Shown: one piece after another, positions 1-16,481 of the stretch | Numbering within the stretch: position 1 is the first letter of the stretch | How the letters are laid out: every line of letters begins with the position of its first letter | Assembly (NCBI GenBank): GCA_023424865.1 | Contig: JAFADM010000233.1 | Coordinates: 1-20,446 of the forward strand | Length of the DNA stretch: 20,446 nucleotides | Direction of reading: 5' to 3' | DNA from: Bacillota bacterium | GTDB lineage: Bacteria; Bacillota_A; Clostridia; DSM-8532 | Position numbers and translations under genes: made by a program | Notes under the pieces: generated by a model | Database searches by the model: none | The model's input: only the letters and a program-made list of their open reading frames with translations | What the model was told of the DNA's origin: nothing

Positions 1-2278
1 TGAGATAAACATGGTAGGGGCTTCCCTGCAGGTTATAGTGAGGCTTTAGCAGCACCTTGCCCAGATGGTAGCTGTAAGGCTCATCTGCGGGAGTTAATGC
101 CTCCTGGGCAGTCTTGCCTGACGGCCAGGGAATGAACTCCTCCCGGCTGTCGGCGGCAGCCAGAACCAGCGGCCCGTAGTAAACGGACAAAATTTCCGGT
201 TTGTCGGGGGTGGGCTCGCTGCGCAGTGTAAAGGGCATTTGAAGCTCCACCGTATCCCCGCTTATGAAATCCCTCTCCAGCACAATGTAGCCGTCCTCTG
301 TTCCATACGGGGTTTCTTTTCCGTTTACCTTCACCACGGCAGGCTCGGAAAGCCAGGAAGGCCGCCTCAGCTTAAGGCACAGGAAGCCATTTCCCTCTAC
401 TGTAAACGCGGCACGCTGCTCGGCAATGAGATCGGCTGTCTGGAGGATCTTTATCCCCTTTTCACTCCAATGAAGCGTGGAAGGAATGTACAGTGCCACA
501 TACAACGTATTCCCCTGATGGTAGTAGATGCTTTCCTGGTATTTCAGGTGGCTCTCAAGCCCTGTCCCGTGACAGCAGCTGTTCTCGTCAAGATCAAAGG
601 ATTTCTCTGCTCCGGGCTGAAGAGGCATAAAATAAGTGCTTCCCCCTGTGGGGCCGCTCTGATCATGGGAGGCGACAATATGGTTAATCAGTGTCTTTTC
701 GTAATAGTCCATCAAGTGGCTTTCCGGCGTATAGACAAAGAGCCGGCCGGTAAGCTTAAGCATATTGTAGCTGACACAGCTTTCCGCGGTGCGGTCGGAG
801 AGGAATGCCCCGATACCGTCCACCCGTTGGAACATTTCACCCTCGCTGGTACCGCCAATGCAGTAGCAATGGTTGTCGTGAACCATGTGCCAGAAGTTTT
901 TCGCAATGTCATAATAGCTTTTTCCGCCGCCCTTTTCGAAAATCTCCACCGCGCCCAGCACCTGGGGGATATGCTGATTGGCGTGAATGCCTCCCAGGGT
1001 GTCGATATCAAGGGTCAGGGGATAAAACAGCTTGTCATTGTCAAAATATTTGGCCGCAGCCATATATTCGTCTCTGGGATCAAGGCCGTACAGGCGGGCC
1101 ATGACTTCGTTCATGCCGCCGTATTCTCCGGCGATGTACATACTCCACATTTTCTGGCGCTTTTCCTCGCTTAAAGCGTCCAGCCGGTGAAACACCCATA
1201 TCCCCAGCTTCCGGCAGATGTCGAAAGCCTTTTCTATTCCCGCCAGCTCATAGCAGTCCAAAAGTCCTGCGATAATTTTATGAAGTGTATAGTAGGGAGC
1301 CCATATCCTGGGATAAATAGCGTATTCCTCCAGTTGATCAAACTGATCCTCCGAGTAACCGCTTAGAAAGCCCGGATGGAATTTGCCGCTTAAGGCCATG
1401 GCATCCTGACATTGGGCAAGGCCTTCAACCATATGGTTGACCTTTTTAAGAAACTTTTCCTTTTCCTCTCCAGTACAGCAGCTTACAGCCAGGGCTATAG
1501 CCGACAGGTAATGCCCTGTGGTATGCCCTTTAAGAAGGCTTTGGGGCGCATCCCAGCCGGTCATGGGCTCCGCATTAAGGGTATCAAGTCCTGCTGCCTT
1601 TCTAAAGTTGTACAGCATGCTGTCGTCGCTGATTCCCAGAAGATATTCCACTATTCTGGTTTTGTTCTCCTTGAAAATGCCTCCGTCCACTTGGACGTCC
1701 TTCAGAGGGAAGGGCTTAAGTACCGGCTTTGGACCTGCATCTTGCGTATCCGGATCATCCTTAGAAAGCACTGTCACCACTGCAGTGGGAATAAGCCCGG
1801 GATAACGTCCATCCGGAGGCAGAGCTTTAATCTCATACAGCCCGGGTGCCGCAATTGAAAAATCCGGAACATCCTTCCAGGTAACCGGCAGAGTGGTGAA
1901 GCAGCCGTCATGGGTCTCCAGGATGACAACACTTGGCAGGTGCCAGGCTTTCCCTTCCGGGATTTGGGCCTCCACCTGAAAAATCCGGGTAAATACCAGG
2001 GTGCTTTCAACCTGCAGCACGGTAGCGGTAAACTCACGGATTTCCCTTTGTCCATCCAGTGTAAGTGTTGCGGTAAGCCGTACCTCTCTGTTGCCCGTCC
2101 CTGCTCTCGGGCGATGCACGCGACCGGTATTGTCAATAAGATGGGGATAGTCGCTGTTCCAGGCAATCACCGAACCGTTTTTACCCTCGGTGGGCAGATT
2201 CAGGTCCGCATCAACAGTAAAAATATTACCGATATAAATGGCTTCCTTGTCTTTCAGCAGCTTTTCCGCTGTGGTCAT
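1..2278 (-). CDS. GH127-type beta-L-arabinofuranosidase with two N-terminal Ig-like domains, partial (C-terminus off window)
   Basis: The frame is open from ATG 2278 to the window edge, giving 759 visible residues without a stop. Residues about 10-90 resemble an atrophied bacterial Ig domain (KNGSVIAWNSD, then TGRVHRP). Residues about 90-170 resemble a group-4 bacterial Ig-like domain (LPVTWKDV). The DUF1680/GH127 catalytic region follows from about 185. The zinc-thiolate site known from Bifidobacterium HypBA1 is present: Glu499 and Cys501 in AESCVSYN, Cys568-Cys569 in NSCCHGTG, and an upstream GEMF glutamate matching the proposed acid/base. HypBA1 releases beta-L-arabinofuranose from hydroxyproline-linked arabinosides. 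No signal peptide is visible, so it should act in the cytoplasm on imported oligosaccharides. AGAAGG lies 7 bases before the ATG. It is the last gene of a four-gene transport operon. GH146 or another DUF1680 specificity (for example an aceric-acid hydrolase) cannot be excluded. Confidence 0.88.
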   Translation of the reverse strand, partial: MTTAEKLLKDKEAIYIGNIFTVDADLNLPTEGKNGSVIAWNSDYPHLIDNTGRVHRPRAGTGNREVRLTATLTLDGQREIREFTATVLQVESTLVFTRIFQVEAQIPEGKAWHLPSVVILETHDGCFTTLPVTWKDVPDFSIAAPGLYEIKALPPDGRYPGLIPTAVVTVLSKDDPDTQDAGPKPVLKPFPLKDVQVDGGIFKENKTRIVEYLLGISDDSMLYNFRKAAGLDTLNAEPMTGWDAPQSLLKGHTTGHYLSAIALAVSCCTGEEKEKFLKKVNHMVEGLAQCQDAMALSGKFHPGFLSGYSEDQFDQLEEYAIYPRIWAPYYTLHKIIAGLLDCYELAGIEKAFDICRKLGIWVFHRLDALSEEKRQKMWSMYIAGEYGGMNEVMARLYGLDPRDEYMAAAKYFDNDKLFYPLTLDIDTLGGIHANQHIPQVLGAVEIFEKGGGKSYYDIAKNFWHMVHDNHCYCIGGTSEGEMFQRVDGIGAFLSDRTAESCVSYNMLKLTGRLFVYTPESHLMDYYEKTLINHIVASHDQSGPTGGSTYFMPLQPGAEKSFDLDENSCCHGTGLESHLKYQESIYYHQGNTLYVALYIPSTLHWSEKGIKILQTADLIAEQRAAFTVEGNGFLCLKLRRPSWLSEPAVVKVNGKETPYGTEDGYIVLERDFISGDTVELQMPFTLRSEPTPDKPEILSVYYGPLVLAAADSREEFIPWPSGKTAQEALTPADEPYSYHLGKVLLKPHYNLQGSPYHVYL

Positions 2279-2351
2279 GCTCGTACCTTCTTTCTGTAGC
2301 GATCAGATAAAATGTCTCCGTAGCGCCAGGCCGAGGCCTAAACAGCCGCCA

Positions 2352-3191
2352 TCAGCCCTTTATTCCGGAGAGCGTAATCCCTTCCACAAAATACTTCTGG
2401 AACATGAAGAAAATAAGAATCATAGGCAGGGTCACAACCGTCGAGGCTGCCATAAGAAAATCCCATCTCGTGCCGTACATTCCTCGGAAGGCGGAAAGGC
2501 CTACCGACAGCGTGTACTTGTCCTGAGAATTTAAGTAAATGACGGGACCCAGCAAATCATTCCAAACATTCATAAAAGTGAAAATGGAAATAGTCGCCAG
2601 CACAGGCTTAATCTGGGGCATAAGAATGGACCAGAATATTCTGGGCTGGCTGGCTCCGTCTATGAGTGCCGCTTCGTCCAGATCCTTTGGAATAGTCATA
2701 AAGAACTGCCTTACAAGAAAGATGTTATAGGCGCCGCCGCCAAGCCATGCAGGCATAATCAGAGGCCAGTAGGTATCTGTCAGCCTGATATTGCTCCAGA
2801 TTAAAAAGGTGGGAATCAACGTAATAAAGCTTGGGATCATCATCGTGGTCAATAAAGCGTAGAAGACAACTTTTTTACCCTTCCATTTAAGGCGCGTAAA
2901 GCTGTAACCCGCCATGGCTGAGGTAAGCACCGTACCGATGGTACTTACGACCACCAGAAACAGGGTATTGATAAAATAACGTCCAAAGGGCTGGCTGCCC
3001 AGGGCTTTAGGGTAGTTTTCCCACATAAAGGGGCCGGGAATGACCTTAATGGGAAACTCAAACAGCTGCTTACGGTCCATCAGCGATGAACGGATAAGCC
3101 AGAAGAATGGCAGCAGTGCCGCTGCGGAAACAATAATTAAAAGCGTGTAAACCACTATGTTCCTCACGCGGATCTGTGTGGATCTTTTCAT
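2352..3191 (-). CDS. Carbohydrate ABC transporter permease, MalG/CUT1 type
   Basis: A 279-residue inner-membrane permease, the usual length for MalG-like subunits. An N-terminal membrane segment (residues about 12-32) is followed by several hydrophobic stretches. The cytoplasmic EAA loop that docks the ATPase is clear near residues 170-195 (EAALIDGASQPRIFWSILMP). The C-terminus FVEGITLSGIKG is typical of the subfamily. It starts 3 bases after the stop of the upstream permease, with GGAGGGGG upstream, so the two permeases are co-translated. It would form the channel with the 3195-4121 product. No ATP-binding subunit is encoded nearby, as is common for Firmicute CUT1 systems that share an MsmK-type ATPase. 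The substrate is not readable from sequence; the neighbouring GH127 gene suggests arabinosides. Confidence 0.93.
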   Translation of the reverse strand: MKRSTQIRVRNIVVYTLLIIVSAAALLPFFWLIRSSLMDRKQLFEFPIKVIPGPFMWENYPKALGSQPFGRYFINTLFLVVVSTIGTVLTSAMAGYSFTRLKWKGKKVVFYALLTTMMIPSFITLIPTFLIWSNIRLTDTYWPLIMPAWLGGGAYNIFLVRQFFMTIPKDLDEAALIDGASQPRIFWSILMPQIKPVLATISIFTFMNVWNDLLGPVIYLNSQDKYTLSVGLSAFRGMYGTRWDFLMAASTVVTLPMILIFFMFQKYFVEGITLSGIKG

Positions 3192-3194
3192 ATT

Positions 3195-4121
3195 TTAATC
3201 ATCCCCCTCCGCGTAATACACCCAACTATTTGACGTTTTAAACAGAACCACCGTAAAGGCGGAGATAATCACAAACAGTATCCAGGCCAAAGAGGAGGCA
3301 TACCCCATATTGTTGTCCTTAAAGGCCGTTCGGTAAATATGGTACGCATAGAAAAGGCTTCCGTTGGAAGGTCCGCCCTCCGTCATAACGAAGGCCTGAT
3401 AGAAGGCCTGGAGATAATTAATGATGGCCATAACCAGATTAAAGAAAATGGTGGGTGTCATCATGGGCAAGGTGATTTTTATGAATTTGTGCCAGAGGTT
3501 TCCTCCGTCTACCTCCACTGCCTCATAAAGGCTGCTGGACACACCCTGGAGCCCTGCAAGAAAGATAATCATCGTCGCCCCGATATTCCAGAACTGCATA
3601 AAGGCCAGGGATGGGATAACGGTACTCTTGGCGTAAACCCATTGGCTCACGGGAAGGTTCATTCCTCTTAAAAGGGTGTTTAAAAGGCCGAAATCCGGGT
3701 TGAACATCCACTTCCACAATAAGCCGTTGGCAACAGCCGGCACGATGCCCGGAAGATAGACAATGGTGCGGTAAAACCGCATTCCGCGCAGGCCCTTGGT
3801 GTTAAGCATCATTGCCGCTAAAAAGGAGGCTCCGATATTAATGGGCACTGCAAACAGCATGTAGCTGAAGGTAACCTTCAAAGACAGGCCGAAAAAAGGA
3901 TCCGTGGTGAAAATCTCCTTATAATTTTCCATACCAATGAAATCGCCGTTAACCCCCAGTTTTACATTGGTAAAGCTCAGATATAAGCTATACAGCATGG
4001 GGCCCGCCGTAAAAATAGCGAATCCCAGTATGGCCGGTAGCGCAAAAAGATATCCCCATGACTGCTGCGACAGGGATCTTCCTGGCTTCAGCCTGTGTAC
4101 TGCATGGTTCCCAGTTCCCAT
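3195..4121 (-). CDS. Carbohydrate ABC transporter permease, MalF/CUT1 type
   Basis: About 308 residues from ATG 4121. I prefer this start because AGGAGG lies 6 bases upstream; the frame stays open to an ATG at 4193, but starts there or at 4139 would place the Shine-Dalgarno sequence inside the gene. The protein has a short polar N-terminus, a first membrane segment (WGYLFALPAILGFAIF) and further hydrophobic segments. An EAA loop is visible (YEAVEVDGGNLWHKFIKITLP). It is the first permease after the binding-protein gene, separated from it by a hairpin with flanking A and T tracts that could lower its expression relative to the binding protein. Partner of the 2352-3191 permease. Confidence 0.92.
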   Translation of the reverse strand: MGTGNHAVHRLKPGRSLSQQSWGYLFALPAILGFAIFTAGPMLYSLYLSFTNVKLGVNGDFIGMENYKEIFTTDPFFGLSLKVTFSYMLFAVPINIGASFLAAMMLNTKGLRGMRFYRTIVYLPGIVPAVANGLLWKWMFNPDFGLLNTLLRGMNLPVSQWVYAKSTVIPSLAFMQFWNIGATMIIFLAGLQGVSSSLYEAVEVDGGNLWHKFIKITLPMMTPTIFFNLVMAIINYLQAFYQAFVMTEGGPSNGSLFYAYHIYRTAFKDNNMGYASSLAWILFVIISAFTVVLFKTSNSWVYYAEGDD

Positions 4122-4172
4122 ATTATGCCTCCTGTTCATGCATTTTGCTGTGACAGGTTCCGGTGTTTTTAC

Positions 4173-4231
4173 AAAAAGGACAGGCAAGGCCACAAACCGT
4201 CTTTGGAATATGGCCTGCCTCCATCCTTTTT
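4173..4231 (-). terminator. Intrinsic terminator or attenuator between binding-protein and permease genes
   Basis: On the minus strand, AAAAAGGA, then GGCAGGCCA, a loop of about 18 bases, TGGCCTTGCC (one bulged base) and TCCTTTTT. A GC-rich stem is thus followed by a T tract, and the A and T tracts extend the stem. It lies 42 bases after the binding-protein stop codon. Partial termination here is a common way to make more binding protein than permease. Readthrough is expected because no new promoter for the permeases is evident. Confidence 0.7.
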
Positions 4232-4273: not shown

Positions 4274-5656
4274 CTATTTGTCAAACCGGCCTTTATAGAA
4301 GCCGGAGGAATCGATGGTAGCCTGGACCTCCTTGAGGGCTGTAGCGGGATCCGACTCGCCACGGAAGATAGCATCAACCGCAGGATTTATGACATTGCCT
4401 ATCTGGCTGTACTCGAGAATAAACTGTGTGGGAAGCAAGGTAACATTTGTTTCAATGTTCTTCACAACCACATCCACAAACTCCTCGGGGCGGCTGCCGG
4501 TCTGTGCCCAGAAAGCAATTTTCTCGGGATCGGTGTAATATTCCTTGTAGATAGGCTGCCATAGACCATTCTTGTACAAATCGGTGGCGCCTTTCTCGGT
4601 ATCAAGGCTGTACTTGTAGAACGCAAGTGCCGCATCGGGATATTTGGTGCTGCTGAACATAGCCGTTACACCCGGCGCGCTTATGGTATAGGGGCCTTTG
4701 CCCATGTCGGGAAGGAAGGTACATCCTACGTTTAGATCTTCCTCGTCATAAGTCAGGAAGGACCAGTTGCCGTCAATAATCATGGCCACCTGCCCTGTAA
4801 GCATGAGCTGTGTGGAATCCGGATTGGAAGAAACATCGGTCATAGAAGGAGAAACATGATCCTTAACAATTAAGCCCTGAAGCTTTGTCATAAGATCAAT
4901 CATCTCGGGGCTGTCGAAGCTGGTGTTGGAATCATCGGCCTTAAGAATGTCGCCGCCCATGCTTTTCAAAAGCGGATACCAGTTGTTAATGCCAAAGGTC
5001 ATGCTGAAGCCGTAGTGCTTGACGTTAGTGGAATCAAAGCTGGCGCTGTAGGCGTTGTTGCCGTTTCTGTCAACGGTAAGCTGCTTGCAAAGATCCACAA
5101 ACTCATCCCAGCTAAGAGCCTTATCTAAGGAGGTAGGGGGATATGCAATACCCAGTGAATCAAAAATGTCACGGTTATACACAAGCATCAGGGTTTCGTG
5201 GGCAGTGGAGAAAAACGCTGTTTTGCCGTTAACCTTCCACTGATCGTTAGGAAGAACGCCGTCCAAAAAGGAGGTGTCGGAACCCAGTGCATCCTCAACG
5301 AAGAGAATGGTTCCGTCCAATGCATAGGGCACGCAGGAACCCGCAGGCACATAGGCAATGTCCGGAGCGTTCTTGGCGGCAATCATTGAGGAAAGCTTCT
5401 GCGCGTACTCATCAGGCACATGCTGAGGTGTCACCTGGATTTTGCCGTTGTTCTCGGTGTTAAAGTTGGTGACCATTTTCTCCACTGCGGCTTTTTCCTT
5501 TTCATCGCCCCAGAACATAAAGCTGAGCTTGGCGACCTCTCCGGAGCCTGTGGATGTGTTGGATGGGTTGTTGCTGGCATCAGTTGCGCCCTGTCCGCAC
5601 GCGGCCAGAGAAAGCGCTAACATTGCTGCCATCAATGATGCTGCTAGCTTCTTCAT
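4274..5656 (-). CDS. Extracellular sugar-binding lipoprotein of the ABC transporter
   Basis: A 460-residue family-1 solute-binding protein. I chose ATG 5656 (MKKLAASLMAAML) over the TTG at 5671 because GGAGG lies 8 bases upstream and a normal lipoprotein signal follows. A basic n-region and hydrophobic core end in the lipobox LSLAAC, with Cys at about 20. A Ser/Thr/Asn-rich linker precedes the mature domain, which begins near VAKLSFMFWGDEKEKAAVEKM. Later landmarks are NAPDIAYV, GQVAMIIDGNWS and YPDAALAFYKY, as in CUT1 binding proteins. It should be tethered outside the membrane and deliver ligand to the two permeases. As first gene of the operon, its upstream DNA carries a palindrome that overlaps a TATAAT. 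The ligand is unknown; an arabinoside or arabinosylated peptide is inferred only from the GH127 neighbour. Confidence 0.93.
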   Translation of the reverse strand: MKKLAASLMAAMLALSLAACGQGATDASNNPSNTSTGSGEVAKLSFMFWGDEKEKAAVEKMVTNFNTENNGKIQVTPQHVPDEYAQKLSSMIAAKNAPDIAYVPAGSCVPYALDGTILFVEDALGSDTSFLDGVLPNDQWKVNGKTAFFSTAHETLMLVYNRDIFDSLGIAYPPTSLDKALSWDEFVDLCKQLTVDRNGNNAYSASFDSTNVKHYGFSMTFGINNWYPLLKSMGGDILKADDSNTSFDSPEMIDLMTKLQGLIVKDHVSPSMTDVSSNPDSTQLMLTGQVAMIIDGNWSFLTYDEEDLNVGCTFLPDMGKGPYTISAPGVTAMFSSTKYPDAALAFYKYSLDTEKGATDLYKNGLWQPIYKEYYTDPEKIAFWAQTGSRPEEFVDVVVKNIETNVTLLPTQFILEYSQIGNVINPAVDAIFRGESDPATALKEVQATIDSSGFYKGRFDK

Positions 5657-5926
5657 GTTTTTTTCCTCCAAATCTAATATTATAGAAATCTATAATTGTA
5701 CAGGACCGGGGTGCCGATTATGGCCCCTCCAATGTCCGACACAATGCTGCAACACTAAGCGGCTTATCCCGTATGGGATCGGTTAAAAATTTAACTCCCG
5801 CCCAATTTTGCGCACAACCTGTCTTATGAATGCCGATCCCTCGCTTGATACCCTTTAGGTACCGGTGCCGGCAGCGTCTTTTTGCGTGCGCAAATAAAAA
5901 ACAAAAGCAACATCTTTAGCCTAACC
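5657..5926. other. Intergenic region between M24 peptidase and sugar operon
   Basis: Two minus-strand genes are separated by 270 bases. No ORF here looks like a gene. Besides the palindrome at 5679-5696, it holds two small inverted repeats: ATCCC-4-GGGAT at 5766-5779 and GTTAAA-2-TTTAAC at 5782-5795. A weak promoter-like pair on the minus strand (TTGTGC, 17 bases, TTAAAT, about 5816-5788) overlaps the second repeat. I see no strong terminator after the peptidase gene. The spacing suggests that the sugar operon has its own promoter. Confidence 0.45.
5679..5696. promoter_or_regulatory. Candidate operator/promoter element of the sugar operon
   Basis: A perfect inverted repeat with 8-base arms: ATTATAGA, 2 bases, TCTATAAT. 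It lies just upstream of the GGAGG of the binding-protein gene. On the minus strand one arm contains TATAAT, which could serve as a -10 element, but no good -35 hexamer lies 16-18 bases upstream. It may be a repressor site or a short 5' hairpin. It differs from the TTCA-N6-TGAA motif found elsewhere in the window. Confidence 0.45.
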
Positions 5927-7207
5927 TTAGCTGTTTTTTACGTCTTTGCTCTCATTGGCTGAGGCCATATAATCCTCAATGTCCTTAATGCTTCTGGGAA
6001 TGGATGCGGAAAGGTTCTCACAGCCGTTTTCCGTTACGAGGCAGTTGTCCTCCAGGCGAAATCCGATACCCCACTCGCGGCAATAAATACCTATATCCAC
6101 GCAAAATACCATTCCTGGCGCGATAGCCATTGTATAATCCACAACATCATGAACGTCGTAACCCACATGGTGAGCCCCGCCGTGCCAGATGTATCTGCCC
6201 GCCTCCCCGAAGTCGCTTAAAAGGCCGATGGCCTTAAGCTGCTCAAAGCAGTAGCGGCGTGCTGTTTTATCCACGTCGGCCATGGGCATGCCGGGTTTTA
6301 TGATGCTGAACATATATTCCGATGTGTTATAAGCGCAGGTGTAGAGCAAGCGTTGCTTTTCACTGAATTTTCCGTTGACCGGCCAGCCCCGTGAAACATC
6401 ATTGCAAAGACCGTCCCACTGAGCTCCCACGTCGTTGAGAATCATGTCCCCGTCCATGGCCTGTCTCATATAGCCGTAATAATGAATGCAAAAATTATTT
6501 TTACCAGAAGAGATAATGGATGGAAAAGCGGGTGTAATCACACGGTTTCGAGTAAGCGCCCTGTCGTATTCCGCTTTCAGCTCATATTCATGGACACCTG
6601 GTCTTGCAAAAGCCATCATGGCCAGAATACCTTCCCGGGTAATCTGCATTGCCCGGCGCATGGCTTCAATCTCACAGGGAGCTTTAATGGTTCTTAACTT
6701 GCGTACCAATGGGAAGACGGTATTAATCCCGAGATAGGGGTACAGCATCCGGACATGTTTGGCAAAGCGTTGATTCTCATCATCGGGTTCATCCGGAGCA
6801 AAGCGCTCCAGGTTAAGCCAGACGGTATGGAATCTGCCGCTTTCCGCCGCCTTGTGAAAGATGGCTGGAAAGTCTTCAATATAAGCAATGTTTTCAGCGC
6901 CGGAAAGTTCAATCGCCTCATTGGCCTTCAGCCTTGGACCATTCCAAGTTTCTTTGTGCTCATCAGGCGGCAGCAGTATAACTGTTTCAGTTATTTTGCC
7001 CGCCTCTTTAGCCGCCATGAAAACCAGACTTTCTGCGTAGGAACCGTCAATACCGGTCAGATAGACAAAATGCCGGTGAGGGAAAAACGGATAGAATGCA
7101 TCGGCTGACTGGCGGGGCGCTTTCCCTGCGAAAAGCACCAGCAAGGAACCATCAGAAAGGCTTTCATACAGACGAGTCCGGTTTGTTTTATGGAATGATT
7201 TTTCCAT
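5927..7207 (-). CDS. Aminopeptidase P-like M24 metallopeptidase (Xaa-Pro aminopeptidase family)
   Basis: The 426-residue protein matches the two-domain aminopeptidase P layout: an AMP_N domain (residues 1-about 165, with HRHFVYLTGIDG) and a pita-bread M24 domain (about 175-400). The dinuclear metal ligands align with Asp259, Asp270, His346 and Glu386. The ligand that is normally Glu in the EPG motif is Asp371 (FCVDIGIY). His353 in DVHD matches the second catalytic histidine. Aminopeptidase P removes an N-terminal residue that precedes proline, and many also accept hydroxyproline. No signal peptide is seen, so it is cytosolic. The start is supported by GGGGTGG 4 bases before the ATG. It has its own promoter (7293-7321) and a perfect palindrome near the expected transcription start. 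With two further proline-peptidase genes beyond the control region, it points to proline- or Hyp-rich peptide use. Confidence 0.88.
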   Translation of the reverse strand: MEKSFHKTNRTRLYESLSDGSLLVLFAGKAPRQSADAFYPFFPHRHFVYLTGIDGSYAESLVFMAAKEAGKITETVILLPPDEHKETWNGPRLKANEAIELSGAENIAYIEDFPAIFHKAAESGRFHTVWLNLERFAPDEPDDENQRFAKHVRMLYPYLGINTVFPLVRKLRTIKAPCEIEAMRRAMQITREGILAMMAFARPGVHEYELKAEYDRALTRNRVITPAFPSIISSGKNNFCIHYYGYMRQAMDGDMILNDVGAQWDGLCNDVSRGWPVNGKFSEKQRLLYTCAYNTSEYMFSIIKPGMPMADVDKTARRYCFEQLKAIGLLSDFGEAGRYIWHGGAHHVGYDVHDVVDYTMAIAPGMVFCVDIGIYCREWGIGFRLEDNCLVTENGCENLSASIPRSIKDIEDYMASANESKDVKNS

Positions 7208-7269
7208 GATACCACCCCTTCTGCTACGGTGATAAAGCCCCGTCGCTTCATGCCGTTTTATGAAAATTT

Positions 7270-7285
7270 ATTCATCATGATGAAT
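7270..7285. promoter_or_regulatory. Perfect 16-base palindrome, candidate operator (TTCA-N6-TGAA class)
   Basis: ATTCATCATGATGAAT is a perfect palindrome and contains TTCA-N6-TGAA. It begins about 8 bases downstream of the -10 of the minus-strand M24 peptidase promoter, around the expected transcription start, where a bound repressor would block initiation. It shares its core with sites at 7508, 7541 and 11013. Confidence 0.6.
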
Positions 7286-7292
7286 TAAACCT

Positions 7293-7502: not shown

Positions 7503-7530
7503 TTGACATTTCAGAATAATGAAATAAAAT
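7503..7530 (+). promoter_or_regulatory. Sigma-A-type promoter of the amidohydrolase-peptidase unit
   Basis: TTGACA (7503-7508), a 16-base spacer and TAAAAT (7525-7530). The -35 is consensus. The spacer is almost exactly filled by an 18-base inverted repeat, so a bound repressor would exclude RNA polymerase. The start codon is about 310 bases downstream. The alternative start signal at 7742 means this assignment is probable rather than certain. Confidence 0.6.
7508..7525. promoter_or_regulatory. Candidate operator ATTTCA-N6-TGAAAT within the promoter
   Basis: The sequence ATTTCAGAATAATGAAAT has perfect 6-base arms around 6 bases. The same arms with the same spacing recur at 11013-11030 before the epimerase operon. 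It sits between the -35 and -10 hexamers, overlapping one base of each. Likely bound by the XRE-cupin protein encoded at 10198-10800 (inference). Confidence 0.65.
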
Positions 7531-7540
7531 AGAAATAGTG

Positions 7541-7556
7541 TTTCATGAAAATGAAT
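7541..7556. promoter_or_regulatory. Second candidate operator, TTCA-N6-TGAA
   Basis: TTTCATGAAAATGAAT contains TTCA-N6-TGAA (7542-7555). Its centre is 32 bases from that of the 7508-7525 site, about three helical turns, so two dimers could bind on one face of the DNA. It would lie just downstream of the expected transcription start. The stretch also holds the palindrome TTTCATGAAA (7541-7550) and ATGAAAA-8-TTTTCAT (7545-7566), so the exact contact bases are uncertain. Confidence 0.5.
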
Positions 7557-7604
7557 GACTTTTCATATACTAGTTTATGTAAGAGCAGACAGGCACTGGT
7601 GTTT

Positions 7605-10197: not shown

Positions 10198-10800
10198 TCA
10201 GGGCTGCATGGCGTTATGGTCCGGCTCATTTGTAATAAACGGGTTAGGGTAGTTCAGCGCCAGAATTTTTGCAATTTTATTTGAGCGGTTAGTCCAGTTG
10301 TGAGCTTCCGAGGAGTGGATCTGCATGCTGTCTCCAGGATACAGGGTGTACTGATCGTCGCCCACACAAACCGTGACCACTCCCTCCAGCACAAAGATGA
10401 ACTCCTCACCGTTATGACTGTACATTTCCAGTACATCCTCGCTGTTGGCGTAGGGCATAAGCTGGTAAATGCGGGGAAGCATTTGAAAGCCGTTTACATC
10501 CTTACTCAGGATGAACTGAATAATTTGAGGGCTGATCTGATCGTAGGGTCTGTCAAAGCTGTGTACCACGGGGTCATTTGTGGCATTGGCCTCTTCCGCA
10601 GTGAAGAAGCTTGTAAGGGTGACGCCAAGAATTTCCGCCAGTTTTGACAGCGAATCAATGGCAATTGTGGACATGCCCCGCTCCAGCTGGGATAAAAAGC
10701 CGACCGAGAGACCTGTCTCATCGCTGAGCTGTTTCAAGGTGTACTTCTTACCGGTTCTCAACTGCTTAATTCTGGAACCGATGGCTGCATTTCGATCCAT
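10198..10800 (-). CDS. XRE-family HTH regulator with C-terminal cupin sensor
   Basis: A 200-residue DNA-binding protein. Residues 8-65 form an XRE helix-turn-helix (LKQLSDETGLSVGFLSQLERG). Residues about 118-185 form a cupin_2 barrel (EMYSHNGEEFIFVLEGVVTV, then YPGDSMQIHSSEAHNW), which in relatives such as PuuR binds a small ligand. AGGAGG lies 7 bases before the ATG, and a TTGACA/TACACT promoter precedes it. It sits between the peptidase unit and the epimerase operon, both of which carry ATTTCA-N6-TGAAAT at their promoters, so it is the natural candidate for the local regulator. The ligand could be Hyp, proline or a downstream intermediate (inference). Repressor versus activator cannot be told from sequence; operator placement suggests repression at the peptidase promoters. 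Confidence 0.92.
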   Translation of the reverse strand: MDRNAAIGSRIKQLRTGKKYTLKQLSDETGLSVGFLSQLERGMSTIAIDSLSKLAEILGVTLTSFFTAEEANATNDPVVHSFDRPYDQISPQIIQFILSKDVNGFQMLPRIYQLMPYANSEDVLEMYSHNGEEFIFVLEGVVTVCVGDDQYTLYPGDSMQIHSSEAHNWTNRSNKIAKILALNYPNPFITNEPDHNAMQP

Positions 10801-11012: not shown

Positions 11013-11030
11013 ATTTCATATTTGTGAAAT
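11013..11030. promoter_or_regulatory. Candidate operator ATTTCA-N6-TGAAAT upstream of the epimerase operon
   Basis: ATTTCATATTTGTGAAAT has the same 6-base arms and spacing as the site at 7508-7525; only the middle six bases differ. It ends 7 bases before the -35 hexamer TTGACT, so a bound protein could activate, or repress by blocking the -35. A wider repeat, TTCACAAA (10995-11002) with TTTGTGAA (11021-11028), overlaps it. Confidence 0.65.
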
Positions 11031-11037
11031 CTATCTA

Positions 11038-11095: not shown

Positions 11096-12112
11096 ATGCG
11101 GATACGAAGAACTTTTCATACCATCGATACACATACGGGCGGCGAGCCCACCCGTACTGTGGTAGGAGGAATGCCGGTTATTCCCGGCGCCACCATGAAG
11201 GATAAAATGCTGTACATGATGGGAGAAGGCGATTGGCTTCGACAGCTTCTGGTCTTTGAACCCCGGGGCAATGAGGTTATGAGTGGAACGCTCATCACAC
11301 CCCCCTGCCGTCCCGATGCTGATTTGGGAGTCCTTTATTTCGAGGTTGGCGGCTGGATGCCTATGTGCGGCCATGACACCATCGGTGTGGCCACCGCGCT
11401 GGTTGAAAGCGGCATGGTACCGGTGACGGAGCCTGTTACGGAGATAGCCCTGGATACCGCTGCCGGCCTTGTACGGGTAAGCGTGGATGTGGAAGAGGGT
11501 ATAGCCAAAAGGGTGACCTTTATTAATGCTCCTGCCTTTATGCTGGCAGAAAATGCGGTGGTTAAAACCGGCGAATGGGGAGATATCTCCCTGGACATCG
11601 CCTACGGCGGCAATATTTATGCCATTCTCCCCGCCGCTTCACTGGGGCTGGACATTAAGCCGGAAAACGCTTCTGAAATTGTTGCCAAAGGCAATCGCCT
11701 TAAAAAGGCTATTAATACACAAATCACCGTGGCTCATCCCGAGCTTCCCTTTATGAACCAGGTTACCCATGTGGAATTTTTTCAAAACGCTGAAACAAAG
11801 GAAGACGGCCTTCACAGAGTACGTAATGCGGTAGTCATTCCGCCGGGGGCTATTGATCGTTCTCCATGCGGTACGGGCACCTCCGCCAAACTGGCCGTAC
11901 TGGCCGCAAAGGGTCATATAAAGCCCGGCGGGGCCTTTATTCACGAAAGTATCATCGGCAGCGAGTTCGTGTGCCGTTATGTGACGGATACCACTGTCGC
12001 CGGTAAGCCTGCCGTAGTACCCCAGGTCACCGGCAGCGCATGGGTTACCGGTATACACACCTTTATGCTTGACCCCGAAGATCCCTTTCCAAGAGGATTT
12101 GAGCTGAAATAA
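11096..12112 (+). CDS. Proline racemase family: 4-hydroxyproline 2-epimerase or proline racemase
   Basis: The 338-residue protein is a full-length proline racemase family member. Both catalytic cysteines are present: Cys91 in MCGHDTIG and Cys258 in DRSPCGTGTSAKLA. They lie close to Cys91 and Cys256 of the clostridial proline racemase. Two cysteines mean a racemase/epimerase and argue against trans-3-hydroxyproline dehydratase, which has Thr in place of one. The enzyme would interconvert trans-4-hydroxy-L-proline and cis-4-hydroxy-D-proline without cofactor. I favour Hyp over proline because a D-amino-acid dehydrogenase complex and a DapA-like enzyme follow, as in the known aerobic Hyp route, and no D-proline reductase genes are present. 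A GGAAGGGAG ribosome-binding site lies 6 bases before the ATG. First gene of a seven-gene plus-strand run. Confidence 0.85.
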   Translation: MRIRRTFHTIDTHTGGEPTRTVVGGMPVIPGATMKDKMLYMMGEGDWLRQLLVFEPRGNEVMSGTLITPPCRPDADLGVLYFEVGGWMPMCGHDTIGVATALVESGMVPVTEPVTEIALDTAAGLVRVSVDVEEGIAKRVTFINAPAFMLAENAVVKTGEWGDISLDIAYGGNIYAILPAASLGLDIKPENASEIVAKGNRLKKAINTQITVAHPELPFMNQVTHVEFFQNAETKEDGLHRVRNAVVIPPGAIDRSPCGTGTSAKLAVLAAKGHIKPGGAFIHESIIGSEFVCRYVTDTTVAGKPAVVPQVTGSAWVTGIHTFMLDPEDPFPRGFELK

Positions 12113-12133
12113 CTCCATCAGGAGGATTAATTC

Positions 12134-12463
12134 ATGGAAATGCGTGTTTTGAACCATCCCATCCTCGGCAGCAGCGGGGATAAGGAAATGGTGGAGATTA
12201 TAGTGGACGGCAGGCAGCTAAAGGCTGTCAAAGGCGAAATGATTGCCGCCACCCTCATCGCCCACGGTATACGAACTCACAGGCATACTGCCAAAAGCGG
12301 CCAGCCGCGAGGTATCTACTGCGGCATCGGGCAGTGCACCGATTGTGTCATGGTGGTAAACGGCAAGCCCAATGTACGTACCTGCATCACTCCGGTTGAA
12401 GCCGGAATGGTTATAGAAACACAGGAAGGCTATGGAAAGCGGGGTGGGACCAATGAGACATGA
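12134..12463 (+). CDS. Small (2Fe-2S) ferredoxin-like subunit of a D-amino-acid dehydrogenase complex (HcnA-like)
   Basis: A 109-residue protein with a ferredoxin-type [2Fe-2S] fold. The ligands are Cys63, Cys68, Cys71 and Cys84 (YCGIGQCTDC, then VRTC). The N-terminus MEMRVLNHPILG is typical of small subunits of hydrogen-cyanide-synthase-like and Hyp/proline dehydrogenase complexes. It would pass electrons from the FAD subunits to an acceptor. AGGAGG lies 8 bases before the ATG. The end of the gene overlaps the start of the next by 11 bases, which supports coupled translation and one complex. The final acceptor in an anaerobe is not evident from this window. Confidence 0.85.
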   Translation: MEMRVLNHPILGSSGDKEMVEIIVDGRQLKAVKGEMIAATLIAHGIRTHRHTAKSGQPRGIYCGIGQCTDCVMVVNGKPNVRTCITPVEAGMVIETQEGYGKRGGTNET

Positions 12464-13544
12464 GACAGTGATTATCGGCGGAGGTCCCGCAGGACTGGCT
12501 GCAGCCATTGAAGCTGCCAAATACGGCACCCGGGTGCTCGTCATCGATGAAAACAAGAGGCCAGGCGGTCAGCTTTTCAAGCAGATTCACAAATTCTTCG
12601 GTTCCAGTGCCCATAACGCGGGCATTCGGGGCATTGATATCGGCCTTCGCCTTTTGGAGGATACGGAAAAAAGCGGCGTGGAGGTGTGGCTGGACAGCTC
12701 TGCCGTTGGTATCTTTAAGGATGGTCGGGTAGCTGTTTTAAAAAACGGGGAAACCCAGGTGGTGGAGGCGGATCGCATTCTCATTTGTACCGGTGCCTCC
12801 GAAAATGCTCTTCGCTTCCCCGGCTGGACCTTGCCAGGGGTTATGGGTGCGGGTGCCGCTCAAACCATGATAAATGTAAACAGGGTGCTGCCCGGCAAAC
12901 GCATCCTCATGGTGGGCAGCGGAAATGTAGGCGTCATCGTTGCTTATCAACTGCTTCAAGCGGGAGCTCAGGTGGCAGGCGTCGTGGAAGGCATGCCCAG
13001 GGTGGGCGCTTATGGCGTCCATGCTGCCAAAATACGCCGGGCAGGCGTCCCCTTCTATCTTGGCCACACCATCGCCCGGGTGGAGGGTGATGGCCGGGTT
13101 GAACGTGCCGTCATTGCCGAGTTTAAAGATGGAAAAATCGTCCCGGGTACGGAGAAATCCGTCGAAGTGGACGCCGTCTGCATCGCTGTAGGTTTAAGGC
13201 CTCTTACGGAGCTTGCCTGGATGTCCGGTATAAAGCATGAGTTTATACCGGAGCTGGGAGGCTGGATGCCCCTTCATAATGCTAATATGGAGAGCAGTAT
13301 CCCCGGCATTTATGTCGCCGGAGACACCGCAGGGGTAGAGGAGGCCAATACGGCAATGGATGAAGGACGTTTGGCGGGTGTCGCCATCGCTCACAGCCTG
13401 GGGCATCTTTCAGATGAACAGGCCGAGAAGGACAAGGCCGTCATCCGGGATCGTTTAACCGCTCTGAGGCAGGGTCCCTTCGGCCAGAAACGTCTCAACG
13501 CCAAAAACCGAGTCATTGAGAGGGGGACACACGAACTTGGATAA
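12453..13544 (+). CDS. FAD/NAD(P)-binding oxidoreductase subunit, HcnB-like (D-hydroxyproline dehydrogenase alpha type)
   Basis: 363 residues from ATG 12453, chosen because GGGGTGG lies just upstream and the dinucleotide-binding fold then starts at residue 6 (VIIGGGPAGLAAAIE). A GTG-type start 21 bases earlier is possible. A second Rossmann motif lies near residue 155 (ILMVGSGNVGVIVAY). The C-terminal FAD contact is GIYVAGDTAGVEEANTAMDEG. This two-dinucleotide-domain subunit pairs with a DAO-type subunit in HcnABC and in multimeric dehydrogenases for L-proline or D-Hyp. Here it lies between the [2Fe-2S] protein and the ferredoxin-like protein, with overlaps on both sides. Whether the second site binds NAD(H), FMN or nothing is open; NAD(H) would explain how an anaerobe reoxidises the complex. 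Confidence 0.85.
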   Translation: MRHETVIIGGGPAGLAAAIEAAKYGTRVLVIDENKRPGGQLFKQIHKFFGSSAHNAGIRGIDIGLRLLEDTEKSGVEVWLDSSAVGIFKDGRVAVLKNGETQVVEADRILICTGASENALRFPGWTLPGVMGAGAAQTMINVNRVLPGKRILMVGSGNVGVIVAYQLLQAGAQVAGVVEGMPRVGAYGVHAAKIRRAGVPFYLGHTIARVEGDGRVERAVIAEFKDGKIVPGTEKSVEVDAVCIAVGLRPLTELAWMSGIKHEFIPELGGWMPLHNANMESSIPGIYVAGDTAGVEEANTAMDEGRLAGVAIAHSLGHLSDEQAEKDKAVIRDRLTALRQGPFGQKRLNAKNRVIERGTHELG

Positions 13545-14373
13545 TGGAATTCTTTTGGACGGATTCCCCAGTATGGAGGAAATCCAGACAGCCAACGGCT
13601 GGCCCGGTGAAGAGAGGTTTGCAAGGGGGCCGGTAGCTATTGTGGAATGTGTGCAGGAAATTCCCTGCAATCCCTGCCAGGGGGCTTGTCCCACAGGCGC
13701 TATCCGGGTGGGAGAGCCCATTACCAACACCCCCCGGGTAAATTATGACTCCTGCACCGGCTGCGGATTGTGTATTGCCGCCTGCTCGGGCCTTGCCATT
13801 TTTGTCGTGGATAAAACCTACAGTGAAACAGAGGGAACCGTCAGCTTCCCCTTTGAATACCTGCCTCTGCCTGAAAAGGGAAGCCGGGTTGAGGCCCTTA
13901 GCAGGGGTGGTGACTATGTGTGCGAGGGCACTGTGGTACGTGTTGTCAATGGAAAGCGCAATGACCACACACCCGTTGTAACCGTGGCCGTCCCCAAGGA
14001 GCATACCGATACCATCCGAACCATTCGCAGACTGAATCTTTCCGAAGAAGCATCGGCTTTTTCGCAAGCTGATGAGAATACAACCTTGGACGACAATGTG
14101 ATTGTCTGCCGCTGCGAGGAGGTCACTGCGGGAGATATCCGCCGGGCTATCCGGGAATTCGGAGGCACCAGTGTTACGGAGGTTAAGCGCCGGGCACGCT
14201 GCGGCATGGGACTATGCCAGGGAAAAACCTGCGGACGGCTGGTTACACGTATTATCCAGGAAGAGCTGGGCACAGGTGCCGATGTACTCCGGCCGTCTAC
14301 GGACCGCCCTCCGGTACGCCCTGTAACCTTCGGAGAGCTGGCCGGCAGCGGAAAGGCGGACTGTGATGCTTAA
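13537..14373 (+). CDS. 4Fe-4S ferredoxin fused to a BFD-like [2Fe-2S] domain, dehydrogenase subunit
   Basis: About 278 residues from TTG 13537. That start has AGAGGGGG about 10 bases upstream and overlaps the previous stop by 8 bases; the only nearby in-frame ATG (13573) lacks a ribosome-binding site, and a TTG at 13516 is a poorer option. Residues 38-83 hold two 4Fe-4S motifs: Cys38, 44, 47, 51 (CNPCQGACP) and Cys73, 76, 79, 83 (CTGCGLCIAAC). Residues 187-240 form a BFD-like [2Fe-2S] domain with Cys191, Cys193, Cys222 and Cys227. The protein can wire three clusters in one chain and probably links the FAD subunits to a cellular electron carrier. Its end overlaps the next gene by 8 bases. BFD-like domains are common in Hyp/proline dehydrogenase and HcnB-type complexes, often fused to the alpha subunit; here the domain is on the ferredoxin. 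Confidence 0.8.
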   Translation: MDNGILLDGFPSMEEIQTANGWPGEERFARGPVAIVECVQEIPCNPCQGACPTGAIRVGEPITNTPRVNYDSCTGCGLCIAACSGLAIFVVDKTYSETEGTVSFPFEYLPLPEKGSRVEALSRGGDYVCEGTVVRVVNGKRNDHTPVVTVAVPKEHTDTIRTIRRLNLSEEASAFSQADENTTLDDNVIVCRCEEVTAGDIRRAIREFGGTSVTEVKRRARCGMGLCQGKTCGRLVTRIIQEELGTGADVLRPSTDRPPVRPVTFGELAGSGKADCDA

Positions 14374-15544
14374 AGGTGTAGATGTAGCCGTTATCGGGGC
14401 GGGGGCCATCGGGGCCAGTGTAGCCTATTTTAATGCGAAAAACGGGGCCAGTGTGGCCCTTGTGGATGCCGGCGACATAGCGGAAGGAACCAGCAGCAAA
14501 AGTGACGGAAACGTGCTGGTCTGCGACAAGCAGCCCGGTTTCGACGCTTTGTTCGCCAAGGCCAGTCAGGATATGTTCGAGCCCTTAAGCCGGGAGCTGG
14601 ACTATCCTATTGAATGGCGGCAAAAAGGCAGCCTCTTTTTAGCTGAAACCGAGGAAGAGCTGGAGCTGGCCGCCAGGTTTTGCGGTGAGATGCAGGCCAT
14701 AGGCCTTCCCATGAGGATGATGGATAAAAAAGAAATTCACGAGGATGAGCCCTTTTTAGCAGAGGACCTGCCCGGCGGGCTTGAAACAGCCTGCGACGGT
14801 TCGGTTTACCCCATTGGCCTTTGCTACGCACTGGCTCTGGGTGCAAAAAAGCTGGGCGCTCAGCTTTTCCTTCATAATCCGGTTACAGGAATCAGCCGGG
14901 ACGGCGCAGCCTTTATCGTACATACGGAAAAAGGCGATATTGCAGCCAAAAATGTGGTGAACTGCGCCGGTGTTCGAGCCCCCGTTATAGGCGGGATGCT
15001 GGGCCTGGAGATTCCGATTATGGCCAGGCAGGGCCAGATCCTGGTAAGCGAGCAAACCTTCCGGGTAGGCCGCCGCAAGGTCCATGAATTCGGCTATATG
15101 CTGGCCAAGTTTGGCGGAGGCACCTATAAACGCCCTGTAAGCGAGCGCGTGGAGCGTAATGGCGTAGCCTTTGTTTTCGAGCCCACGGAGGATAACAATT
15201 TTCTCATCGGCTCCTCCCGCCGGTTTGCAGGAGAAGATATCACCAATGACATCGAGGTGATGCAGGCCCTGGCGGAGCGGGCCATCCGATTTTTTCCCGT
15301 TCTTAAGGATATTAAGGTTATCCGCGCTTACAGCGGGCTTCGGCCCTTCACCCCGGATCATATGCCCATCGTGTCCTCATCTTCGGTGCCGGGCTTTTAC
15401 GTCGCTGCCGGACACGAGGGCGATGGCATAGGCTTGTCTCCCATTACGGGAAAATGCATCGCCGACATGATTGCCGGCCGCAGCCCGTTTACGGATCTTT
15501 CTCCGCTGGCTTTGGAACGATTCAAAAACGCTACGGCGCATTGA
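14366..15544 (+). CDS. DAO-family FAD oxidoreductase, HcnC-like (D-hydroxyproline dehydrogenase beta type)
   Basis: 392 residues from ATG 14366; a GTG 3 bases earlier is an alternative, and AAGGCGG lies upstream. The N-terminal FAD motif is VAVIGAGAIGASVAYF, then ALVDAGDIAEGTSSKSDGN. The C-terminal DAO signature is FYVAAGHEGDGIGLSPITGK. This is the likely catalytic subunit that oxidises the D-imino acid: cis-4-hydroxy-D-proline to delta-1-pyrroline-4-hydroxy-2-carboxylate if the Hyp model holds. The four genes from 12134 to 15544 overlap in series, strong evidence for one complex. D-proline, sarcosine and glycine are other known substrates of this family; the epimerase before it and the DapA-like gene after it favour D-Hyp. 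Confidence 0.85.
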   Translation: MLKGVDVAVIGAGAIGASVAYFNAKNGASVALVDAGDIAEGTSSKSDGNVLVCDKQPGFDALFAKASQDMFEPLSRELDYPIEWRQKGSLFLAETEEELELAARFCGEMQAIGLPMRMMDKKEIHEDEPFLAEDLPGGLETACDGSVYPIGLCYALALGAKKLGAQLFLHNPVTGISRDGAAFIVHTEKGDIAAKNVVNCAGVRAPVIGGMLGLEIPIMARQGQILVSEQTFRVGRRKVHEFGYMLAKFGGGTYKRPVSERVERNGVAFVFEPTEDNNFLIGSSRRFAGEDITNDIEVMQALAERAIRFFPVLKDIKVIRAYSGLRPFTPDHMPIVSSSSVPGFYVAAGHEGDGIGLSPITGKCIADMIAGRSPFTDLSPLALERFKNATAH

Positions 15545-15590
15545 ACCTGGCCTGCTACCCAAAATCATCAAGAAAGCGAGTGTTTCTGCA

Positions 15591-16481
15591 ATGAACCAAC
15601 AATTTGAAGGCGTTTACGCCGTAGTCGTCACACCTTTTCTGGAGGACGGCAGCTTTGACTTCACAGCCGCTAAGAAAAATGTGGACGCGCTTCTGGCGGA
15701 CGGCGTTCACGGCATCTGCCTGCTAGGCGCTACAGGCGAGTACATGAGTGTGACCAATGAAGAGCATAAGGCCTACGTCTCCGAGATGGTACCCTATATT
15801 AAGGATCGCACCAGTGTCATTGTAGGCGTTACCCGTGAACGGGCAGACGATGTCATTGAGCTTAGCCTCCATGCCAAAGCCTGCGGTGCTCATGCCGTGA
15901 TGGCTCTCACACCGCCCTATTGCCATCCCTCCCAGGAGGAGGCGGTGGAGAATTACCGCTACATCATGGAGAAAATCGATTTCCCTGTGATGGTATACAA
16001 CAACCCGGGCTCCTGCGGTATTGAGCTGAGCCGGGAAGCCTTCAGCCAGCTTTTCACACTCCCCCACACCGCCATCGTCAAGGAGTCCAGCGGCGACATA
16101 CATAAGCTTCAGGAAGTACTGGAAGACGCTCCGGAAAATGTTTCCGTATTCTGCGGCTGCGACAACCTTGCTTTCGAAAGCTTTGCCAACGGCACCAACG
16201 GCTGGATCTGCATGCTGGCAAACGTAGCGCCAAGGGATTGTGTCGCCCTGTTTGACGCCGTATACAAACAGAAGGATCTTAAAAAGGGTATGGCCATTTA
16301 CAAGCGCATCCTGCCCGCACTCAATGTGCTGGAGAGCTTCCCCAAGCCCGTACAGGCACTGAAGTACCTTCTCACGCGCAAAGGACTCAACGGTGGCTGG
16401 GTGCGCCGCCCCCGTATGGAACTGACCGCGGAGGAGAAGGCCTTTGTCATTACAGAGATGCGCGCGGATGAGATTCACTGA
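15591..16481 (+). CDS. DapA-superfamily lyase/deaminase (candidate pyrroline-4-hydroxy-2-carboxylate deaminase)
   Basis: 296 residues from ATG 15591, where homology to the family begins (YAVVVTPFLEDGS); the frame stays open upstream but runs into the preceding gene. The ribosome-binding site is weak (AAAGCGAG). A Schiff-base TIM barrel is shown by GATGEY (46-51), Tyr136 (VYNNPG) and Lys164 (AIVKESSGD). In the known Hyp route a member of this family deaminates and dehydrates pyrroline-4-hydroxy-2-carboxylate to 2,5-dioxopentanoate. An alternative in the same family, 2-keto-3-deoxy-L-arabinonate dehydratase, yields the same aldehyde from L-arabinose, which is notable beside a beta-L-arabinofuranosidase. 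Lysine biosynthesis is unlikely in this context. N-acetylneuraminate or sugar-acid lyase activity cannot be excluded. Confidence 0.85.
   Translation: MNQQFEGVYAVVVTPFLEDGSFDFTAAKKNVDALLADGVHGICLLGATGEYMSVTNEEHKAYVSEMVPYIKDRTSVIVGVTRERADDVIELSLHAKACGAHAVMALTPPYCHPSQEEAVENYRYIMEKIDFPVMVYNNPGSCGIELSREAFSQLFTLPHTAIVKESSGDIHKLQEVLEDAPENVSVFCGCDNLAFESFANGTNGWICMLANVAPRDCVALFDAVYKQKDLKKGMAIYKRILPALNVLESFPKPVQALKYLLTRKGLNGGWVRRPRMELTAEEKAFVITEMRADEIH

Follow-up and report, generated by a model that had tools for sequence, protein, structure and literature searches.

A candidate clostridial locus that joins a GH146-type glycosidase and Xaa-Pro peptidases to putative hydroxyproline catabolism genes

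We analysed a stretch of 20,446 nucleotides from a clostridial Bacillota bacterium (GenBank assembly GCA_023424865.1, contig JAFADM010000233.1, positions 1 to 20,446; the window), which carries a candidate gene set for the use of arabinosylated hydroxyproline (Hyp) peptides. Gene starts in the window are based on open reading frames (ORFs). A minus-strand run from 7207 down to 2 is headed by an APP-type M24B Xaa-Pro aminopeptidase (APP; 5927..7207, PF00557 and PF05195), followed by a sugar ABC substrate-binding lipoprotein (SBP; 4274..5671, PF13416/PF01547), a sugar ABC permease of the MalF/UgpA type with an uncertain start (3195..4193, PF00528), another of the MalG/UgpE type (2352..3191, PF00528, NCBIfam scores under the cut-offs) and a PF07944 glycosidase with N-terminal aBig_2/Big_4 domains, truncated at the window edge (2..2278). 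On the plus strand an amidohydrolase (AH) of the Xaa-Pro dipeptidase type (7850..9076, PF01979) and an M24 prolidase of the PepQ type (9073..10143, PF00557 and PF01321) form a pair at 7850-10143. The minus-strand gene of an XRE-cupin regulator (10198..10800, PF01381 and PF07883) separates this pair from a second plus-strand run at 11096-17735, leading from a racemase-family gene through a dehydrogenase set and a gene of the dihydrodipicolinate synthase (DHDPS) family to an iron-type alcohol dehydrogenase (Fe-ADH). Domain searches thus recovered the gene set listed in a sequence-only reading of this DNA, namely a sugar ABC transporter, three proline-peptidase types, a two-cysteine racemase family enzyme, a four-subunit dehydrogenase and a DapA-like enzyme. 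The three peptidases have Xaa-Pro family domains and scored under the curated NCBIfam cut-offs (APP, NF008131, 185 bits, cut-off 465; AH, NF051886, 217 bits, cut-off 500; M24 prolidase, NF040821, 218 bits, cut-off 630); their exact specificities are candidates. The nearest solved chain of the AH was 2qs8, an 'Xaa-Pro Dipeptidase', with 152 bits.

The first gene of the second plus-strand run (11096..12112, PF05544, proline racemase superfamily) encodes a candidate hydroxyproline 2-epimerase. Hydroxyproline epimerases (HypE) are set apart in PMC4364671 by His at site 4 and the absence of Phe from sites 1 and 5. The window racemase and all ten core racemases of related loci (L001-L010) had both catalytic Cys and the combination Ser/His/Ile at sites 1/4/5. 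Thirteen further racemases compared also had Ser and His, with Ile or Ala at site 5 (the comparison excluded L017 and L019). Ile in these putative epimerases is a third state beside the Cys or Tyr at site 5 of the known HypE covered by the available text of PMC4364671. This residue, and the ranking of the NCBIfam models, with 367 bits for PRK13969 (proline racemase, cut-off 556) ahead of 332.5 bits for PRK13971 (hydroxyproline epimerase, cut-off 376), would suit a proline racemase that feeds D-proline oxidation or Stickland reduction. We consider proline as the amino acid highly improbable, given Ser, His and a non-Phe residue at the discriminating sites and a DHDPS-family enzyme plus semialdehyde enzymes that fit Hyp. 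Furthermore, three of the genomes (G005, G008, G009) have separate Prd-type paralogues with Phe, Leu and Phe at sites 1, 4 and 5, as in AsProR. The paralogue of G005 adjoins PrdA, confirmed by NCBIfam, and that of G008 has neighbours that look PrdA-like by eye; no prd genes were present in the stretch examined around that of G009. Profile searches found neither prdA nor prdB among the window genes. A Prd-type proline racemase was therefore rejected for the window, with no Phe at sites 1 and 5, no prdAB linkage and the Phe/Leu/Phe paralogues being separate genes. Thus the amino-acid half of the locus looks like hydroxyproline rather than proline.

Downstream of the racemase-family gene lie a [2Fe-2S] small subunit (12134..12463, PF13510), a FAD subunit of the pyridine-nucleotide type (12432..13544, PF07992), a subunit with 4Fe-4S and BFD-type [2Fe-2S] domains (13516..14373, PF04324, PF17806 and PF00037) and a DAO-family catalytic subunit (14363..15544, PF01266, 242.5 bits). 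These are the domains and the tandem order of a heteromeric D-Hyp dehydrogenase, for which the set is a candidate. In the heteromeric enzyme a DAO beta subunit is combined with a FAD alpha subunit bearing the BFD-type [2Fe-2S] domain and with a [2Fe-2S] gamma subunit; BFD and 4Fe-4S reside on a separate protein in the window. The DHDPS-family enzyme (15591..16481) matched PF00701 with 178 bits and the dapA equivalog with 188.6 bits, under its cut-off of 206 (the scored protein was one codon longer at the start). As a DHDPS superfamily member encoded with HypE-type and D-Hyp-dehydrogenase-type genes it is a candidate pyrroline-4-hydroxy-2-carboxylate (Pyr4H2C) deaminase. The core from epimerase to DHDPS was complete in eight of 26 racemase loci and interrupted by contig ends in two more; L014 had the core up to the DAO subunit, and the other 15 had the racemase only.

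The window run ends with the Fe-ADH (16563..17735, PF00465). An aldehyde dehydrogenase (ALDH) adjoins the core in five of the eight complete loci (L004, L005, L006, L008 and L010), and an Fe-ADH 65-67% identical to that of the window occupies the same slot in two (L002 and L007). The eighth, L003, has a Mo-aldehyde oxidoreductase on the opposite strand (15427-18195; NF045668, 1354 bits, cut-off 1100) with a palindrome of its own scoring 24.8 (see below). This recurrence in the core slot ties the Fe-ADH to the Hyp operon, where it would probably reduce alpha-ketoglutarate semialdehyde, in a putative branch to 5-hydroxy-2-oxovalerate.

For the glycosidase the sequence-only reading had proposed a GH127-type enzyme with a Glu499/Cys501/Cys568/Cys569 site. 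The Zn/Cys site E499, C501, C568 and C569 is indeed intact and invariant across 36 aligned sequences including that of the window, the equivalents in Bll3HypBA1 being E723/C725/C804/C805, i.e. the Zn-coordinating Glu and three Cys (PMC10850190). The family had to be revised: in sequence and fold the enzyme is closest to BT0349/Bll3HypBA1, with BT0349 as the nearest member, and belongs to GH146, and membership in GH127, the family of HypBA1, was rejected since neither sequence nor structure was closest to GH127 members. The catalytic Zn/Cys site is common to both families. Because the window enzyme is a GH146 member, the activity of HypBA1, release of beta-L-arabinofuranose (Araf) from Hyp-linked arabinosides, is not transferable by family, and beta-L-arabinofuranosidase activity is a prediction. 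According to PMC10850190, Bll3HypBA1 cuts beta1,3-Araf in arabinogalactan protein (AGP) and arabinan at the cell surface, while BT0349 is encoded in a rhamnogalacturonan I (RG-I) locus and expected to act on RG-I fragments. The window glycosidase differs from both in having no visible signal peptide, being presumably cytoplasmic, and in its linkage to peptide use. GH146-like proteins of any architecture numbered 4209 relatives at E <= 1e-30 among 7997 scored. At E <= 1e-190 the window enzyme had no match in 375 genomes of the order of G002, an empty answer that carries no weight.

An enzyme of this type might clear sugars other than beta-Araf from proline-rich glycopeptides, as related enzymes differ in activity: the aceric acid hydrolase model gave a weak match of 31 bits, and the window enzyme is only about 30% identical to solved GH146 members. 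The glycan may indeed vary, since the uncultured Clostridia G001 and G002 have a GH31-type gene and an APP beside the core (L001 7-3041 and L002 2187-5530, Pfam-tested in L002). On the other hand, the Zn-Cys3-Glu site is kept in all six linked glycosidases of a separate alignment, as is (by eye) a Trp at the position of the active-site Trp of BT0349 within the motif IWAPYYTxHK. In addition, the N-terminal domain of the window enzyme matches an arabinanase module, and all but one of the 12 genomes with the core or a linked glycosidase have an L-arabinose isomerase match. We regard a specificity for such other sugars as quite unlikely. The GH31-type gene is a second glycosidase type in the slot of the GH146 gene, preceded by a palindrome of 24.4 in L001.

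Linkage of the two halves was assessed in those core genomes that offered enough contig (G002-G008 and G010, n = 8). Three of them had a GH146-type gene no more than about 12 kb away from the core; given the number of copies and the sizes of the genomes, 0.21 would be expected (P = 8.5e-4). The gene orders were GH-amidohydrolase-M24-XRE-APP-Opp-core in G003, GH-M24-Opp-XRE-core in G006, and APP followed by GH-two-component-sugar ABC-core-Fe-ADH in G007. The possibility raised with the sequence-only reading, that glycosidase and Hyp genes are rarely neighbours in related genomes, was thus checked and not borne out. G005 and G008 have the glycosidase away from the core, in a GH-M24-Opp cluster and in a GH-APP-M24 plus Opp cluster, respectively. 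The importer was a peptide transporter instead of a sugar ABC system in nine of 11 linked GH loci (the window and ten in relatives), and this moves our reading away from free arabinosides and closer to glycopeptides. Two further loci, L035 and L037, have a GH146 gene of the same clade beside an ORF of about 1050 amino acids and M42/M20-like peptidases (by eye), possibly a different glycopeptide system.

Next to these neighbourhoods stands a sample of 397 Lachnospiraceae genomes, the family of G007, which includes G007 as its centre and three genomes previously found by sequence. With the single G006 protein as query (E <= 1e-130), so that matches are relatives of this enzyme and not all PF07944 genes, 20 of the 397 genomes gave 22 matches: 13 short ones with open frames of 602-827 amino acids and nine long ones of 1278-2197 amino acids, which we take to be cytoplasmic and secreted, respectively. 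Four genomes had a Hyp dehydrogenase of >70% identity, and each of them also had a short GH146 gene, which was present in 12 genomes overall (P = 4.9e-7, or 1.6e-5 without the centre, both uncorrected for kinship). Seven of the 13 short loci (G006, G007, G048 C2, G271, G338, G362 C167 and G369) and none of the nine long ones adjoin a peptide importer, an M24 peptidase or the core (Fisher 0.017), with short flanks in several of the long controls (L069, L070, L072 with almost none, L073 and L075). The short loci of G004, G010, G048 C24, G178, G241 and G319 lack such neighbours. Four of the 13 (G004, G006, G007 and G010) had been seen beforehand; among the nine new ones five were positive, two of these (G362 and G048 C2) with nearly identical gene order. 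In the long locus L070 a Prd-type racemase fragment lies about 8 kb from the glycosidase gene. The importer of G369 is a POT oligopeptide symporter; its locus L058 (5714-12628) comprises XRE-cupin, M24, a 380-amino-acid protein without Pfam match, GH146 and the symporter, with two strong palindromes.

The palindrome TTCA-N6-TGAA occurred 5' of the epimerase gene in nine of 12 loci, and any other spacing in at most two. Sites were scored with a position weight matrix built from the 12 sites of relatives, the window excluded. Operator-like palindromes in the window are ATTTCATATTTGTGAAAT 5' of the epimerase operon (11013..11030, score 24.7), TATTCATCATGATGAATT 5' of APP (7269..7286, 18.6), ATTTCAGAATAATGAAAT 5' of the AH (7508..7525, 19.1) and a weaker second one 5' of the AH (7540..7557, 15.2). 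The pattern WTTCAN6TGAAW occurred six times in the window against 0.12 expected. In 2000 shuffles the score of ATTTCATATTTGTGAAAT was never reached, and the top score of the intergenic region between APP and AH, 19.1, was reached twice. The differently spaced pattern TTTCATNNNATGAAA was not commoner than in shuffles. ATTTCAGAATAATGAAAT sits within a promoter-like match (TTGACA-16-TAAAAT, 11/12), the total of such matches not exceeding that in shuffles. As a control, 19 GH loci with 308,785 bases contained one site scoring at least 18.

In relatives the palindrome preceded the GH operon of G007 (21.8 and 23.1) and of G005 (18.0), Opp in G003 (21.9 and 19.0) and, with 22.1, the M24 gene at the start of the M24-GH-POT run in G369. 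G005 has just two copies of the strict form WWTTCAYNNNNRTGAAWW, one 5' of GH-M24-Opp and the other, on a different contig, 5' of the epimerase gene. G006 has two, both located between XRE and epimerase, and G007 has seven, two of which precede the GH operon. Eight genomes held 33 strict palindromes in total, nine of them at core or linked units. Seventeen of the other 24 were examined in 16 stretches: nine were inside genes and, judged from ORF starts, just one preceded a peptidase and two preceded L-rhamnonate dehydratase. The peptidase is another M24 enzyme of G008 (L088, 1455-2528) with the palindrome 73 bp upstream. The dehydratase (NF011968, 661 bits in L084) with a GntP-like permease (by eye) lies 31-43 bp behind the palindrome in a pair of loci from G004 and G008 (L084 2512 and L085 2548). 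In eight of the ten core loci L001-L010 the XRE-cupin gene is the immediate upstream neighbour of the epimerase gene, in divergent orientation; in L003 and L007 it is located elsewhere. The XRE-cupin protein, encoded beside the sites, is the natural candidate for the reader of the palindrome.

Taken together we lean, with fair but far from full confidence, towards a single regulon that serves the use of small arabinosylated Hyp peptides. Arabinosyl-Hyp, or short Hyp peptides that bear arabinose, would enter by ABC import, through the sugar ABC system in the window and Opp- or POT-type importers in most relatives. A cytoplasmic cysteine glycosidase of the GH146 type would take off beta-L-Araf, and the Xaa-Pro aminopeptidase, amidohydrolase and M24 prolidase would cleave the imino bonds. 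The epimerase would convert trans-4-Hyp to cis-4-D-Hyp, the multi-subunit flavin/Fe-S dehydrogenase would produce Pyr4H2C, and the DHDPS-family deaminase alpha-ketoglutarate semialdehyde, which would be oxidised in relatives by ALDH, perhaps by the Mo-aldehyde oxidoreductase, and reduced by Fe-ADH in the window. The XRE-cupin protein probably controls the units via TTCA-N6-TGAA. The sequence basis consists of the gene set, the GH146 assignment, the HypE-type residues, the recurrent linkage and the shared palindrome, from which we infer what the substrate is, what the importers take up, how each enzyme acts (the Fe-ADH among them) and which regulator pairs with the site. The original proposal that neighbouring genes degrade the glycan and amino-acid halves of one plant substrate accordingly gains support for joint handling from neighbourhood, co-occurrence and palindrome; 'complete use' and 'extensin' go further than these data.

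The window itself could also owe its arrangement to chance neighbours: the plus-strand genes would use Hyp or prolyl-Hyp peptides, e.g. from collagen, and the sugar ABC-GH146 operon would feed on pectic or AGP arabino-oligosaccharides. The nearest solved chain of the SBP is 6rjy, an arabino-oligosaccharide-binding protein, a weak match of 81 bits, and elsewhere in these genomes further GH146 genes have sugar ABC, LacI-like (by eye) and GH31-like genes as neighbours (L030, L034 and L061). In a tree of 12 of the 19 GH frames (two duplicates and five distant ones omitted) and 45 of 119 database relatives, the window glycosidase fell outside the 13-row clade containing the linked glycosidases of relatives; the pairing in the window would then be an independent recruitment or a coincidence. 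The 255-bp gap between APP and SBP (5672-5926) held no palindrome of the shared type (best score 1.9) and two others of a TTTGCG type (5806-5817 and 5879-5900); a TATAAT-like box was seen by eye, the promoter scan giving no minus-strand match there, and a separate sugar-controlled promoter may lie in this gap. Because the SBP-permease-GH genes have no site of their own, co-regulation would require read-through from APP. Against chance stand the Xaa-Pro aminopeptidase that bears the shared palindrome and heads the sugar operon, the recurrent adjacency of GH and core, their co-occurrence, and palindromes directly 5' of the glycosidase gene in other genomes. Linkage, palindromes and statistics led us to reject random neighbourhood as the sole cause of the cross-genome pattern; for the GH operon of the window we keep it as an unlikely alternative. 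With its glycosidase in another branch, the case for the window itself rests on the APP palindrome and the APP-SBP-GH order.

Several further observations weigh against one regulon. Activity on Araf-beta-Hyp is not described for the GH146 enzymes BT0349 and Bll3HypBA1 in the available text of PMC10850190. G002, G004 and G010 have the core and no GH link in the stretches examined, and G003 gave no match for L-arabinose isomerase. Six more Lachnospiraceae genomes have Hyp-dehydrogenase relatives of 45-48% identity (not counted as core), none with a GH match. G338 and G369 have glycosidase, peptidase and importer and no match for the Hyp dehydrogenase, so this module seems able to exist alone; G009, whose core is interrupted, likewise lacked a match, and incomplete assembly thus weighs on the negatives of G338 and G369. 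As to the palindrome, it heads the run of the glycosidase in four of 11 linked loci (the window via APP, G005, G007 and G369), plus a weak site in G271 (15.9, reached in 18 of 2000 shuffles). No site of at least 13 precedes the glycosidase gene in G003, G008 C23, G362, G048 C2 and G338, and G006 has a weak site (16.6) between GH and M24 and none heading the run. G004, G010 and G369 gave no strict match at core or linked GH, their sites deviating from the strict form. Finally, four of the six palindromes in the window are intergenic and two lie inside genes, those at 2567-2584 (permease, 18.3) and 11779-11796 (epimerase).

Each part of the proposed system is already known. Bifidobacterium longum with HypAA/HypBA2/HypBA1 and a sugar ABC importer resembles the window in combining an intracellular beta-L-arabinofuranosidase with sugar import, aimed at arabinosides of hydroxyproline-rich glycoproteins (HRGPs; PMC7263609). 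There, GH121 releases beta-Ara2 extracellularly and it is the sugar that is taken up, and the available part of that source mentions neither proline peptidases or peptide importers nor the catabolism of Hyp. The window in contrast has GH146, peptidases, a Hyp operon and a shared palindrome. A GH121 beta-arabinobiosidase was not among the genes of the window, the stretch of the genome covered here. The epimerase route of trans-4-Hyp catabolism (HypE, D-Hyp dehydrogenase, Pyr4H2C deaminase and semialdehyde dehydrogenase; PMC4113996, PMC4575208) shares with the window the same superfamilies in one operon, HypE-type residues and a multi-subunit FAD and Fe-S dehydrogenase. The window differs in its clostridial origin, in encoding 4Fe-4S/BFD as a protein of its own, in having Fe-ADH where the known route has the semialdehyde dehydrogenase, in the XRE-cupin gene, and in the attached Xaa-Pro peptidases and GH146. 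The HypD glycyl-radical route of gut Clostridia is also an anaerobic gut use of trans-4-Hyp, but HypD and pyrroline-5-carboxylate reductase make proline (PMC9044972), whereas the window has epimerase, dehydrogenase and deaminase genes. An in-silico reconstruction of Latescibacteria predicted HRGP use with GH127, oligopeptide ABC import and dipeptidases; neither a joined locus nor a Hyp catabolic gene is described in the available part of PMC4454575. The claim that no described locus joins both halves was upheld to this extent: in the open-licence literature, none of the matches listed joins a beta-arabinofuranosidase to Hyp catabolism.

As far as these sources go, described bacteria use either the HRGP sugar, as in Bifidobacterium, or free Hyp, by way of the epimerase or of HypD. 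Tentatively, and at somewhat less than even chances, we suggest a dedicated clostridial glycopeptide regulon in which intact arabinosyl-Hyp peptides, e.g. Araf-Hyp stubs expected to remain after the action of bifidobacterial GH121, would be imported, deglycosylated inside the cell by GH146, cleaved by imino-peptidases and completely degraded under one XRE-cupin operator. The GH-peptidase-importer module would move independently of the Hyp module and would have joined it on more than one occasion, with a reductive 5-hydroxy-2-oxovalerate branch in Fe-ADH carriers. If true, the Araf-Hyp stub gains a consumer, cross-feeding with bifidobacteria is predicted, and a function would be assigned to part of the large GH146-like group. 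The palindrome is a simple DNA signature for finding further such loci, and the named relative strains Sellimonas caecigallum SW451 and Faecalicatena orotica NLAE-zl-C242 make the regulon testable.

The remaining genes of the window are not counted into the proposed Hyp system, and no match to them was noticed beside the Hyp core in L001-L010. They are microcompartment genes on the minus strand at 17797-20366, encoding EutP/PduV, an EutS/PduU-type shell protein, a PduT-type shell protein and an RnfC-like protein, and they continue past the window end.

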